NCBI GenBank assembly: GCA_022072085.1
Contig: JAJVII010000001.1
Coordinates: 1 to 64,000 of the forward strand
Reading direction: 5' to 3'
DNA: 64,000 bases
From: Phycisphaerae bacterium
Lineage (GTDB): Bacteria; Planctomycetota; Phycisphaerae; JAJVII01
Below, piece by piece: positions 8,541-63,668 of the stretch. Positions within the stretch are counted from its first letter, which is position 1. Each line of letters opens with the position of its first letter. Below the pieces are notes generated by a model. That model saw nothing but the letters and a program-made list of their open reading frames with translations. It searched no databases and had not been told where the DNA came from. A program made the position numbers and the translations under genes.

Positions 8541-8698
8541 ATCCTGTAGAAGCAATCTTCACCACAGAGAACACAGAGAGCACAGAGTCGAGAGTATCAA
8601 GAAATTCTTGATTTCAGGCATTTCTTGACGCTTCTGACCTCCTCTGTGATCTCGGTGTCCTCTGTGGTGAATAAAGATTTCTTTTGCAGGTCTCAATA
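8535..8698. repeat. Dispersed inverted-repeat element, CACAGAG family, copy 1
   Basis: About 164 bp. The left arm has three near-tandem 9-bp units (CACAGAGAA, CACAGAGAG, CACAGAG), the centre is a TCAAGAAAT...ATTTCTTGA hairpin, and the right arm holds the complementary units. The outer ends are imperfect inverted repeats (TACTGAATCCTGTAGAAG and, from the other side, TATTGAGACCTGCAAAAG). A nearly identical copy in opposite orientation is at 63506-63668; I count three differences. Confidence 0.9.
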
Positions 8699-19746: not shown

Positions 19747-22700
19747 TCAGCGTCTCAGCGGCCAATCCTCTTCCTCCGCCGCCCAACTGATCGGGATGGC
19801 GTCGACCAGGGACTCGGCCTGCTGCACGTTCAGCGTCACCGCGCCGCGCTCGTCCTCGGCCCGGCCCTCCACCCGGAACGGGCCGACGTGATAGAACAGG
19901 TGGCCGAACCGCCGGTAGGCCTCGGGAAACAGCGTACACTCGACCGTGCCGGTCGCGTCCTCCAGCGTCACGAACCGCATCAGCCGCCCGCGGCTGGTCT
20001 GCACCGTCCGCGTCGCATCCAGGATCCCCGCCACCGCGACGCGTTGCCCGACACGACGCTCCAGCGACGCCGCCTCCACCCAGTCGCCCGTCGCCAGTTC
20101 CATCGGATGGCCGCTCACGAACAGCCCCAGCACGTCGATCTCCGCCTGGAGCCGCTCGACCGGCGTGAACGGACGGGCCCACGGAAAACGCGGATCAGGA
20201 GATTGGTGATTGCAGATTGAAGATTTCTGATTGGCGATCGAAGAGGCCCCAACCGCCGCCTCTTCCAATCTGCAATCCGAAATCTGCAATCTGAAATCCC
20301 CTGCCAGCAGTTCGCCCACCGGCGATTCCAGCGTCATCTCGGCCAGCATCGCCCGGCGGTTGGCGCCCAGGCCGTCGCACGCACCGCAACGGATCAGGCC
20401 CTCCAGTTCCGTCTCCGCTGGCCTGGCCCGCGTCCGCAGGCGGCACAGGTCGCGATAGGGCCGCCCGGCCACGATCCGCTCGATCGTGCCTACCCCCAGC
20501 CCGCGTGCGAAACGCAGCCCCAGCCGGATCGCACCGTTGCCCTCCAGCGTGCTTTCGGCTGACGAGCGGTTCACGTGCGGCGGCAGCACCCGCAGGCCGT
20601 GGCGGATCGCGTCGGCCACGTGCACGCGCATCGGATACATCCCCATGTGGTTGTTGAAGACGGCGGTGTAGAAGGCGGCCGCGTGGCGGGCCTTCAACCA
20701 GGCCGTCTGCCAGGCGATCCGCCCGTAGACGCAGGCGTGGGCCCGGCAGAAGGAGTAGCTGGCGAACCGGGCGATCTGCTCCCAGATCGCGTCGGCGGAT
20801 TCGGGTGCAAGGTCCGGCGTGTGCGCCGCGGCCTTTGCCAGGAACCGCCGCCGCAGCGCCGCCATCCGCTCAGGCGATCGCTTCTTGCTGACGGCCTTGC
20901 GGAGCATGTCGGCCTCGGCGGGCGTGAAGCCAGCCAGCCCCTCCGCGACGCGCATCGTGTCCTCCTGGTAGAGCATCACGCCGTGGGTCCGCCCGAGCAG
21001 ACGCTGGAGCCTTGGGTGCAGGTAGGCGGCCGCCTCCTGCCCGAGGTGGCGGCGGATGTACGCCGTCTTCATGCCCACGCCCGCCGGCCCGGGCCGGATC
21101 ACCGACAGTGCGACGGTCAGTTCCTCGCGCGACGCGACGCGAAGCTGGCGGCAGAGGTGCCGCATCCCCGGCGACTCGGCCTGGAACACCCCCAGCGTGT
21201 CGCCGGAGGCCACCAGCGCGGCCGTCGCTGGGTCGGCCGGATCGAGATCGTCCAATGTCGAGTGTCGAATGTCGAATGTCGAATGGTCAAATTCTCCGCC
21301 GGAATGGCGGACAGACCGCGAAACCGCCGCCTTCGCACTCGACATTCGACATTCGCCCTTCGACATTGCCCGGCCCGCCTCCGCGACCTCGCTCAGCGCC
21401 CGGTTGCCCAGCAGGTCCATCTTCACCAGGCCGATCGCTTCGACCGCGTTCATCTCGTACTGCGTGACGACGATGCCCTTGGCCGCCCGCTGGAGCGGCA
21501 GGTAGTCGGTCAACGGACGCGGGGCTATCACCAGCCCGCCGCAGTGGATGCCGAGATTGCGCGGGGCGCCCTCCAGCCTGGCGGCCATCGCCAGCACCGC
21601 GCGGAAGTGCGGATCGTCCAACGGCAGGTTCCGCCGCGCCTCAGCCAACTCGCGCCAGTCACGCTGGAGGTAGGCCGCAATGCCCTCAGGGATGTGACGG
21701 CTGAGCGAATGGGCCTGTGTCGCGGTCAGGCCCATCACCTTGGCCACCTCGCCGAACGCCCCGCGGGCCCGGCTGGTGTTGTGCGTGCAGATCATCGCCA
21801 CCCGCTCGCCGCCCCAGCGGTGGTAGCAAAAATCGATCACCTCGTCCCGCCGACGCCAGCACAAGTCAATGTCGATGTCCGGGCAATCGGTCCGCCCCTC
21901 GTGCAGGAACCGCTCGAAGTAGAGGTCGTGCGCGATCGGGCAGACCTGCGTGAAGCCCAGCACGTAGGCCACCAGGCTGCCGGCCGCCGAGCCGCGCACG
22001 TCCACCGGGATGCCCCGCCCGCGCGAGAACGCGACGATCTCGTTGACGAACAGAAAGTAGTCCGCGAACCCCAGTTTCTCGATCACCGCCAGTTCGCGGG
22101 CCAGCCGCGTCACCGCCTCCGGCTGCACCGGCCGATACCGCCGCCGCAGCCCGCGCTCGCAGAGTCGGTGCAGGTGCGAGAAGGCCGTCTGCCCACGCGG
22201 CACCCGGCTGACAGGGAAATGGAACACGCCCAGTTCCACCACGTCGTCCTCGCACGCAGCGGCGATCGCGTTGGCGTTGGCCAGCGCCTCGGGGCAGCGG
22301 GCGAAGAACGCAACCATGTCGGCGGACGGGCGGAAGTGCCGCTCAGCCGGCTGGTAGTCCTCCTCCCGCGGCGGGTGGGCCGACGGCAGCAGACGGATGT
22401 CGGTCGCAACGCGGTGCAGGTCGTGGTCGGCGGGCGAAGCGAAGTAGCTGTCCAGGGTGGCCGCCAGCGGCACAGCCGCGTCGCGGGCCGCCATGAACAG
22501 CCGCCGCAGCCGCTGGCGGTGCTCCGGCCCGTCGCCGGGGCTCAACGCCGCGTAGAGCTGCCCGGTCGGCATCGCGTCCGTCAGCGGCTTCAGCCAGTCG
22601 GGCCGATCGCACAGGACGATCAGCCCATCGCGATGGGTCGCCACGTCGGCCAGCAGGTCGAAAGTCTCGGGCGTCAGCCGACGTCGGCTGGTCAGCCGAC

Positions 22701-23157
22701 AGCAGTTGCGATACCCCTCGCGCGTCGCGGCGACGAGGATCAGCCGACCGGGCGGAGACGAGGGCGCGTCGCCGCGACGGGGAACGGGATCGCCCGTCAG
22801 CCTGCGTCCGCGGGGAGATTTCAAATTGCAAATTGAAAATTGCAAATCGACCATTGAAGAGGCGGCAGGCGTCCCCTCTTCCAATCTGCAATCTGAAATC
22901 TGCAATCTGCAATGTTCAGTTCCCTCCCCCCCGTGCAGTTCGACTCCCAGGATCGCCTTGAGCCCCGCGTCGCGGGCGGCCCGGTAGAAACCGACTGCGC
23001 CGTACATGCCGTCCACGTCGGCCAGGTGCAGCGCAGAATATCCGCCGGCGACGGCCTGTGCGATCAGGTCCGCGGGGCTCCGCGTGCCACACAGGATGGA
23101 GAAGTGGCTGTGAACTCCCAGCGCCGCCGCCAGCACCCGCTCGCCATTGCCGCCCAT
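19747..23157 (-). CDS. dnaE2: Error-prone DNA polymerase III alpha subunit (DnaE2/ImuC type) with three in-frame insertions
   Basis: 1136 residues from the ATG at 23155-23157; a TTG at 23197-23199 would add 14. A PHP domain (LGVHSHFSILCGTRSP, HLADVDGMYG), the Pol III core with CPDIDIDLCWRRRDEVIDF near 424-442 and KMDLLGNRAL near 579 (the metal-binding aspartates), fingers with MLYQEDTMRVAEGLAGF, and a C-terminal OB fold (VAVAGILDATRTVQTSRGRL). No tau-binding tail, so DnaE2 rather than DnaE1. Residues about 81-116, 597-636 and 950-987 are encoded by palindromic repeat elements and look foreign (RLQISDCRLEE twice, STFDIRHSTLD once). It would support translesion synthesis after DNA damage; its usual partners imuA/imuB are not adjacent. 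Confidence 0.9.
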   Translation of the reverse strand: MGGNGERVLAAALGVHSHFSILCGTRSPADLIAQAVAGGYSALHLADVDGMYGAVGFYRAARDAGLKAILGVELHGGEGTEHCRLQISDCRLEEGTPAASSMVDLQFSICNLKSPRGRRLTGDPVPRRGDAPSSPPGRLILVAATREGYRNCCRLTSRRRLTPETFDLLADVATHRDGLIVLCDRPDWLKPLTDAMPTGQLYAALSPGDGPEHRQRLRRLFMAARDAAVPLAATLDSYFASPADHDLHRVATDIRLLPSAHPPREEDYQPAERHFRPSADMVAFFARCPEALANANAIAAACEDDVVELGVFHFPVSRVPRGQTAFSHLHRLCERGLRRRYRPVQPEAVTRLARELAVIEKLGFADYFLFVNEIVAFSRGRGIPVDVRGSAAGSLVAYVLGFTQVCPIAHDLYFERFLHEGRTDCPDIDIDLCWRRRDEVIDFCYHRWGGERVAMICTHNTSRARGAFGEVAKVMGLTATQAHSLSRHIPEGIAAYLQRDWRELAEARRNLPLDDPHFRAVLAMAARLEGAPRNLGIHCGGLVIAPRPLTDYLPLQRAAKGIVVTQYEMNAVEAIGLVKMDLLGNRALSEVAEAGRAMSKGECRMSSAKAAVSRSVRHSGGEFDHSTFDIRHSTLDDLDPADPATAALVASGDTLGVFQAESPGMRHLCRQLRVASREELTVALSVIRPGPAGVGMKTAYIRRHLGQEAAAYLHPRLQRLLGRTHGVMLYQEDTMRVAEGLAGFTPAEADMLRKAVSKKRSPERMAALRRRFLAKAAAHTPDLAPESADAIWEQIARFASYSFCRAHACVYGRIAWQTAWLKARHAAAFYTAVFNNHMGMYPMRVHVADAIRHGLRVLPPHVNRSSAESTLEGNGAIRLGLRFARGLGVGTIERIVAGRPYRDLCRLRTRARPAETELEGLIRCGACDGLGANRRAMLAEMTLESPVGELLAGDFRLQISDCRLEEAAVGASSIANQKSSICNHQSPDPRFPWARPFTPVERLQAEIDVLGLFVSGHPMELATGDWVEAASLERRVGQRVAVAGILDATRTVQTSRGRLMRFVTLEDATGTVECTLFPEAYRRFGHLFYHVGPFRVEGRAEDERGAVTLNVQQAESLVDAIPISWAAEEEDWPLRR
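20201..20307. repeat. In-frame repeat insertion 3 in dnaE2 (GATTGCA family)
   Basis: The left arm has GATTG/GATTT-type 8-9 bp units (GATTGGTGATTGCAGATTG), with the inner stem GAAGAGGC/GCCTCTTC, and a right arm TCTGCAATCCGAAATCTGCA. It encodes FRLQISDCRLEE...SSICN in dnaE2, between the GELLAGD and RFPWARPF segments. Confidence 0.85.
21252..21369. repeat. In-frame repeat insertion 2 in dnaE2 (TCGAATG family)
   Basis: The left arm CAATGTCGAGTGTCGAATGT continues with 7-bp TCGAATG units; the right arm ends CTTCGACATTG and is its imperfect reverse complement. It encodes ECRMSSAK...STFDIRHSTLD within dnaE2. Confidence 0.85.
22817..22914. repeat. In-frame repeat insertion 1 in dnaE2 (GATTGCA family)
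   Basis: GATTTCAAATTGCAAATTGA with AATTGCA units on the left, inner GAAGAGG/CCTCTTC, and CAATCTGCAATCTGAAATCT on the right. It encodes CRLQISDCRLEE...FSICNLKS, the same peptide frame as insertion 3, just after the PHP segment ILGVELHGGE. Confidence 0.85.
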
Positions 23158-23189
23158 GCCCGCACCGTCGGCCCGAAAAGTCCACGCCC

Positions 23190-23239
23190 CATATACCAAA
23201 CATATACCTAACTATAGCACGCGGCTTCAGCCTGAGCAA
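23190..23239 (-). promoter_or_regulatory. dnaE2 promoter with tandem operator-like repeats
   Basis: On the minus strand TTGCTC (23234-23239), 17 bp, TATAGT (23211-23216). Directly downstream, over the expected start of transcription, two copies of CATATACC (plus strand, 23190-23197 and 23201-23208) lie 11 bp apart, one helical turn. Such placement suits a repressor site; which regulator binds is unknown. Confidence 0.5.
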
Positions 23240-52522: not shown

Positions 52523-52676
52523 TTCACCACAGAGACACAGAGGCACGGAGAAGAGGGAAGCCTGATTTCAGACAGGAGTTGCATCGGAAAGATGGACGAA
52601 CCGGCACAAAAGGCTTCTTCTCGTCTTCTTCAAACCATGTTCTCTTCTTCTCTGTGCCTCTGTGTCTCCGTGGTAA
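52523..52676. repeat. Dispersed inverted-repeat element, CACAGAG family (8-bp units)
   Basis: Left arm TTCACCACAGAGACACAGAG followed by GCACGGAG; right arm TCTGTGCCTCTGTGTCTCCG followed by TGG. It fills the gap between rph and argF. The units are 8 bp (CACAGAGA, CACAGAGG, CACGGAG) rather than the 9 bp of the copy at 8535. Confidence 0.8.
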
Positions 52677-63511: not shown

Positions 63512-63668
63512 GACCTGCAAAAGAAATCTTTATTCACCACAGAGGACACCGAGATCACAGAGGAGGTTAGAAGCGTCAAGAAATGCCTGAAATAAGAATT
63601 TCTTGATACTCCCGACTCTGTGCTCTCTGTGTTCTCTGTGGTGAAGATTGCTTCTACAGGATTCAGTA
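63506..63668. repeat. Dispersed inverted-repeat element, CACAGAG family, copy 2
   Basis: Almost exact reverse complement of 8535-8698: two substitutions and one single-base length difference by eye. Ends TATTGAGACCTGCAAAAG and, from the other side, TACTGAATCCTGTAGAAG. Confidence 0.9.

Follow-up and report, generated by a model that had tools for sequence, protein, structure and literature searches.

The stretch of DNA analysed here (the window, 64,000 nucleotides from a Phycisphaerae bacterium) carries a gene for a DnaE2-like paralogue of the DNA polymerase III alpha subunit, and three palindromic blocks lie within the reading frame of this gene. The features considered below are as follows.

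19747-23157, minus strand: DnaE2-like DNA polymerase III alpha paralogue with PHP, palm, fingers, HhH and OB-fold regions; D441, D443 and D595 intact
22814-22914, no strand assigned: heptad palindrome of family A, residues ~96-128, in a loop of the PHP domain
21250-21369, no strand assigned: heptad palindrome of family B (ATTCGAC 7-mers), residues ~611-650, in a loop at the palm/finger junction
20196-20303, no strand assigned: heptad palindrome of family A, residues ~965-1000, in the linker from the HhH region to the OB-fold
21253-21285, no strand assigned: left arm of the family B palindrome (tandem 7-mers), from the inverted-repeat search
21336-21368, no strand assigned: right arm of the family B palindrome, from the inverted-repeat search
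20196-20234, no strand assigned: left arm of the 20196-20303 palindrome, from the inverted-repeat search
20265-20303, no strand assigned: right arm of the 20196-20303 palindrome, from the inverted-repeat search

Position 23157 is the ATG of MGGNGERVL and lies inside a longer frame on the minus strand (19747-23199), which is open for 1150 codons and has a TTG at 23199 as its upstream limit. In a phylogenetic tree, the window gene and 16 others form a DnaE2-like clade with 100/100 support, split from 20 DnaE1 genes; L284 groups with DnaE2 and not with DnaE1. A normal DnaE1 is also encoded by the same genome, on contig C33. The three catalytic aspartates (D441, D443 and D595) are invariant in an alignment with homologues. 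When scored against the NCBIfam model for error-prone polymerase (PRK05672), the window protein reaches 594 bits and falls short of the cut-off of 939. It is also below the DnaE1 equivalog cut-offs and passes that of the general polc superfamily alone, and for this reason the gene is called "DnaE2-like". The DnaE2 label is a fair one, though uncertified by a curated NCBIfam cut-off. DnaE2 proteins lack a C-terminal tau-binding domain, and the window protein likewise stops about 20 residues past the OB-fold, without such a domain. No imuA, imuB or other mutasome partner was found adjoining the gene in the 64-kb window. In two relatives, a Y-family polymerase gene lies directly upstream of the DnaE2-like gene (L261 9322-10704 and L263 9367-10635, both on the minus strand), an adjacency that is as expected for a translesion pair. 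A search of genome contigs with the window protein found no named close relatives.

The three palindromes and their insertion sites

The initial annotation had described three inverted-repeat blocks within one uninterrupted frame, and the run of open codons, the inverted arms and the folding statistics all bear this out. The arms of the 20196-20303 palindrome are 39 nt long and 77% complementary, and those of the family B palindrome (21253-21368) are 33 nt long and 88% complementary. The RNA folding z-scores are -6.2 for 20196-20303, -8.3 for 21250-21369 and -4.5 for 22814-22914, values that no shuffled sequence equalled. Two of the blocks had been assigned to one family, read in the same frame into nearly the same peptide, and this too holds: 22814-22914 shares 79% identity with 20196-20303 over 100 nt, and translation of both in the same frame yields RLQISDCRLEE..SICN twice (peptides RLQISDCRLEEAAVGASSIANQKSSICN and RLQISDCRLEEGTPAASSMVDLQFSICN). 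The middle block, which encodes STFDIRHSTLD, had been attributed to a different family. It is indeed built of another 7-mer family, but it is not unrelated; because it has the same architecture of tandem 7-mers in inverted arms, it represents a sister family of family A.

Alignment with homologues had been named in advance as the test that could overturn an insertional origin. When aligned, the DnaE-type proteins of the class prove to be gapped at each of the three sites and to lack the segments. The extra segments of the window protein comprise residues ~92-150 (of which 96-128 are palindrome), 611-650 and 963-1005. Residues 129-149, beside the first palindrome, are also extra relative to the homologues and lie outside the palindrome itself. 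A G+C-rich inverted repeat at window positions 22714-22788 adjoins the PHP-domain insert and corresponds to these residues (~129-149, missing in homologues). Codon use is coding-like beside most of the insert edges.

An AlphaFold2 model of the window protein has a mean confidence of 81.5, with confidence below 50 at residues 92-148, 617-647, 960-966 and 968-1000 and at both termini. The closest solved structures to the model are Pol III alpha subunits, the best being that of M. tuberculosis (7pu7, TM 0.75). The three inserts are predicted to be disordered loops between folded blocks, with the remainder of the protein modelled as a well-ordered Pol III alpha fold. This prediction agrees with the earlier proposal that the repeats entered tolerated loops between the DnaE blocks.

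Dispersal of the repeats within and beyond the genome

Each family is built from tandem degenerate 7-mers (ATTNNNN) in inverted arms, with a G+C-rich loop between them, and the number of 7-mers per arm varies among copies. On the other strand, the family A units read AATCTGA, AATCTGC, AATCTTC and AATCTCC; those of family B are TCGACAT, TCGTCAT and TCGCCAT. When the genome (5.49 Mb in 72 contigs) was searched with a family A 18-mer (CAATCTGMAATCTGMAAT, up to 2 mismatches), 89 matches were found, compared to 1 for the reversed control; a family B 20-mer (TTCGACATTCGACATTCGAC, up to 3 mismatches) gave 155 matches and its reversed control gave 0. Chance is excluded as the origin of the matches, because the genome-wide counts far exceed those of the reversed controls. 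The three blocks in the polymerase gene are translated copies of these two dispersed families of palindromic heptad repeats.

Copies were catalogued in stretches around the matches and in 13 arbitrary ones, so that most of the sampled stretches had been picked for containing elements. This census yielded 97 pieces, including 52 complete palindromes of 67-195 bp. A simple score based on codon usage places five of the 97 inside one coding frame, namely the three of the window gene, one in PurL and another in a U32 peptidase gene. The remainder lie between genes or at gene ends, or are too near a contig end to judge. The PurL gene (FGAM synthase; L073 818-3814, minus strand) contains an in-frame family A element along with a further heptad-like segment (PSALRTPHSALSH), and the U32 peptidase gene (L116 2045-4165, minus strand) contains a half element of family B in frame (PIRHSTLDIRHSP). 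The genome search suggested by the initial annotation has located members of the same families within other proteins. Among elements outside the window gene, the frames through complete palindromes are open in 31% of cases on average. If insert lengths are assumed to be random, the frame would be kept with a probability of ~0.10 per insertion (31% open, times one third for length) and of ~0.001 for three insertions. The maintenance of the frame through three insertions argues for selection on the window gene.

Other repeats were also encountered. A third dispersed palindromic family (CACCACAGAGRCACAGAG) occurs at window positions 8558-8671, 52523-52675 and 63533-63645, and has 57 matches in the genome. 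The heptad palindrome at L089 2994-3188 contains a second long palindrome within its loop, apparently a nested insertion. A RAYT-like Y1 transposase gene (L318, on contig C54 of genome G000) has its own short flanking repeats (KSGPGPLF when translated) and constitutes a separate REP-like system.

The range of family A extends well beyond this genome. An exact 25-mer was found in at least 118 stretches, which include isolates and represent about eleven phyla: Chloroflexota, Acidobacteriota, Planctomycetota, Cyanobacteriota, Armatimonadota, Gemmatimonadota, Bacteroidota, Verrucomicrobiota, Nitrospinota, WOR-3 and Patescibacteria. Carriage by phages was considered and rejected, since the repeat is rare on viruses (15 of 2.9 million viral contigs, versus 1 for the control). 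In the literature searched, the repeat strings had no match and nothing specific was found for the insert peptides; the dispersed 7-mer palindromes, common to many phyla, are apparently unnamed there.

The same gene in other genera and the DnaE1 control

Different palindromic repeats are present in frame in the same gene of at least five other genera (G050, G036, G256, G134 and G128), where they sit at linkers, mostly the same ones as in the window gene. The PHP loop of the G050 protein holds GTCACCCTGAGCGAAGCGAAGGGTCTC..CTCAGAATGAC, from a family (SEAKG) with 15 matches in G050 and 0 in four other genomes searched, and a second copy of this family lies just before RRVAVRLGL. The linker before the OB-fold in G036 contains GGGGCAAGATGCCCC and CACGGGCAGGATGCCCGTG units of another family (GQDARAT), which matches 234 times in G036 and 0 to 2 times in other genomes searched. 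The G256 gene carries in frame a CACCACAGGGACACGG..CCGTGTCTCCGTGGTG palindrome (CACAGAG), whose family matches 6 times in G256, 10 times in G345 and 57 times in the genome of the window. Two further genes contain heptad palindromes in frame in the PHP domain. That of G134 (L271, residues ~98-140) is near family A and harbours a nested repeat, TTCGACTCCGCTCAGCACCCTGAGCCCGTCGAAGGG, with the reading frame kept throughout, and that of G128 is built of another 7-mer. The extra segments of G345 and G262 (direct units), G186 (a palindrome, family unverified) and G043 are only probably repeats.

The replicative paralogue DnaE1 serves as an internal control for the entry of repeats into the DnaE2-like genes of several genera. 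No convincing match to these families was found in 45 DnaE1 genes (35 plus 10 paired), a few isolated 3-mismatch matches having been discounted. Such inserts are counted in 6 of 17 DnaE2-like genes and 0 of 45 DnaE1 genes (hypergeometric probability ~2e-4, calculated by hand), a count biased by the choice of motifs, which came from DnaE2 inserts. A motif-free measure, the strength of the best inverted repeat found in a span of 200 nt, does not have that bias and is also higher in DnaE2 than in DnaE1 (p=5e-6), although DnaE2 genes have the higher G+C content (66% versus 60%). In the comparison of paired genomes (n=11), the palindrome is stronger in DnaE2 in 9 and tied in 2 (p=0.002). This convergence is new: in several genera, unrelated palindromic repeats occupy one and the same polymerase gene and favour the same linkers, and the DnaE1 genes compared are clean.

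Persistence in the polymerase gene and relation to known systems

It is probable, in our judgement, that selfish and mostly intergenic repeats persist in the DnaE2-like gene as tolerated, frame-keeping loops, and that this gene is a recurrent sink for them. A copying process would spread the repeats through the genome, with most copies landing between genes, where they are in fact located. A genic copy would survive only if the frame is kept, no in-frame stop is introduced and the fold tolerates an added loop, a rule that we infer from the open frames, the alignment gaps and the AlphaFold2 model. The DnaE2-like polymerase would be well suited to such insertions, because its linkers are long and flexible and it is a second, probably conditionally used polymerase; selection would then keep the frame and the catalytic core but not the linker lengths. 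With linker lengths unselected, the same gene could fill independently, in each lineage, with whichever palindromic repeat happens to be active there. Most likely the elements serve no function in the polymerase and are passengers, either neutral or slightly harmful. Constraint on the DnaE2-like gene is probably weak, and the earlier idea of relaxed constraint on a spare polymerase gains indirect support from the unrelated palindromic repeats in the DnaE2-like genes of other genera and their absence from DnaE1. However, PurL is a conserved biosynthetic gene and carries an insert as well, which counts against the weak-constraint account; weak constraint is therefore not a requirement.

Two proposals address the spread and the origin of the repeats. 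Mobilization of REP elements by Y1 transposase has been proposed, and heptad palindromes might be mobilized by a Y1 (IS200/REP-type) enzyme in the same manner, which would concern spread only and would be compatible with a sink in the polymerase gene. Family A is carried by 67 of the 176 genomes of the class that encode a Y1 transposase and by none of the 22 that do not (p=7e-5), a stronger association than that with DDE_Tnp_1 (58 of 146 versus 9 of 52, p=0.0035), but neither value is corrected for phylogeny. Moreover, no convincing heptad element lies within 3 kb of the three Y1 genes of this genome (two weak 3-mismatch family B matches are near one), and the clearest of these genes, on C54, is flanked by its own, different repeat. 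Neither defined element ends nor a constant target duplication was apparent in the inspected flanks. We regard Y1 mobilization as unlikely. We also doubt that replication slippage and template switching at existing short 7-mers built the palindromes in place, a proposal about origin only. The arms do consist of tandem degenerate 7-mers in varying number, 7-mer repeats have been tied to polymerase slippage (PMC4692102), and the P6b stems of Nostoc differ in length by 7-nt units (PMC4476775). Nonetheless, growth in place alone fails to explain dispersal, because more than 50 places in this genome draw on the same two 7-mer vocabularies; in addition, homologues have no extra residues at the insert sites.

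A more ambitious possibility, which we consider distinctly unlikely, is that heptad palindromes constitute one trans-phylum class of mobile DNA with an undescribed mechanism and with the translesion polymerase gene as preferred target. Repair polymerases might then move the repeats by self-primed or template-switching synthesis, and the translesion gene might be targeted through being open or transcribed while the mechanism is active, beyond simply tolerating inserts. It is very unlikely that the inserts are kept for a function, with the peptides tuning the polymerase or the mRNA hairpins regulating translation or decay. Independent inserts do gather at the same linkers in different genera, and the RNA hairpins are very stable by computed folding, but the sequences are unrelated between genera, the inserts are predicted to be disordered, and the same elements are mostly intergenic. 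Least probable of all is a decaying pseudogene that accumulates insertions freely and is open by luck: low constraint would account for several insertions and no mutasome partner gene adjoins, but the gene has 1150 open codons with three invariant catalytic aspartates, its codon use is coding-like at most insert edges, three in-frame open insertions would arise by chance with a probability of only ~0.001, and the fold is modelled with confidence outside the inserts.

The repeats have partial parallels in several known systems. The Nostoc trnL intron P6b stems and cyanobacterial STRR also have inverted arms of degenerate 7-nt repeats, and the P6b heptanucleotide motifs are TDNGATT (Class I) and NNTGAGT (Class II) (PMC4476775). 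Family A corresponds to NNNGATT and has the unit AATCTTC in common with the P6b stems (PMC4476775), but the P6b repeats lie within an RNA intron stem, whereas the heptad palindromes here are dispersed and translated inside proteins. The TAACTGA and GGGAATC heptamer repeats are likewise dispersed 7-mer repeats, and TAACTGA is patchy over phyla, with a transfer mechanism that is not known (PMC4679880, PMC4692102); these repeats are mainly direct and between genes, in contrast to the large palindromes in coding frames described here. ERIC, Correia/NEMIS, YPAL and other small MITEs are small non-autonomous palindromes that can be fused in frame to genes (PMC2229807), but these MITEs possess defined terminal repeats and, in many cases, target duplications, neither of which was seen in the flanks inspected here. 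Nematomorpha mitochondria are also reported to have long inverted repeats in functional protein genes (PMC6649704), those repeats being perfect and mitochondrial, and the ones here having imperfect arms in a bacterial genome.

In-frame palindromic insertions have so far been a Rickettsia-centred curiosity. The comparison across genera makes it testable whether in-frame inserts are junk or useful, and DnaE2-like polymerases offer a natural record of the repeats active in a lineage. The Rickettsia palindromic elements are dispersed palindromes of ~100-150 bp that are mostly intergenic, and they too are found in frame in conserved protein genes and translated as extra segments (PMC2229807). The link to them drawn in the initial annotation stands as an analogy of behaviour and not of sequence: no sequence relation is known, and the Rickettsia elements are not described as tandem 7-mers. 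The likeness in behaviour is supported, and descent from the Rickettsia elements is not claimed. Unlike the Rickettsia case, several unrelated families here enter one gene in different genera.
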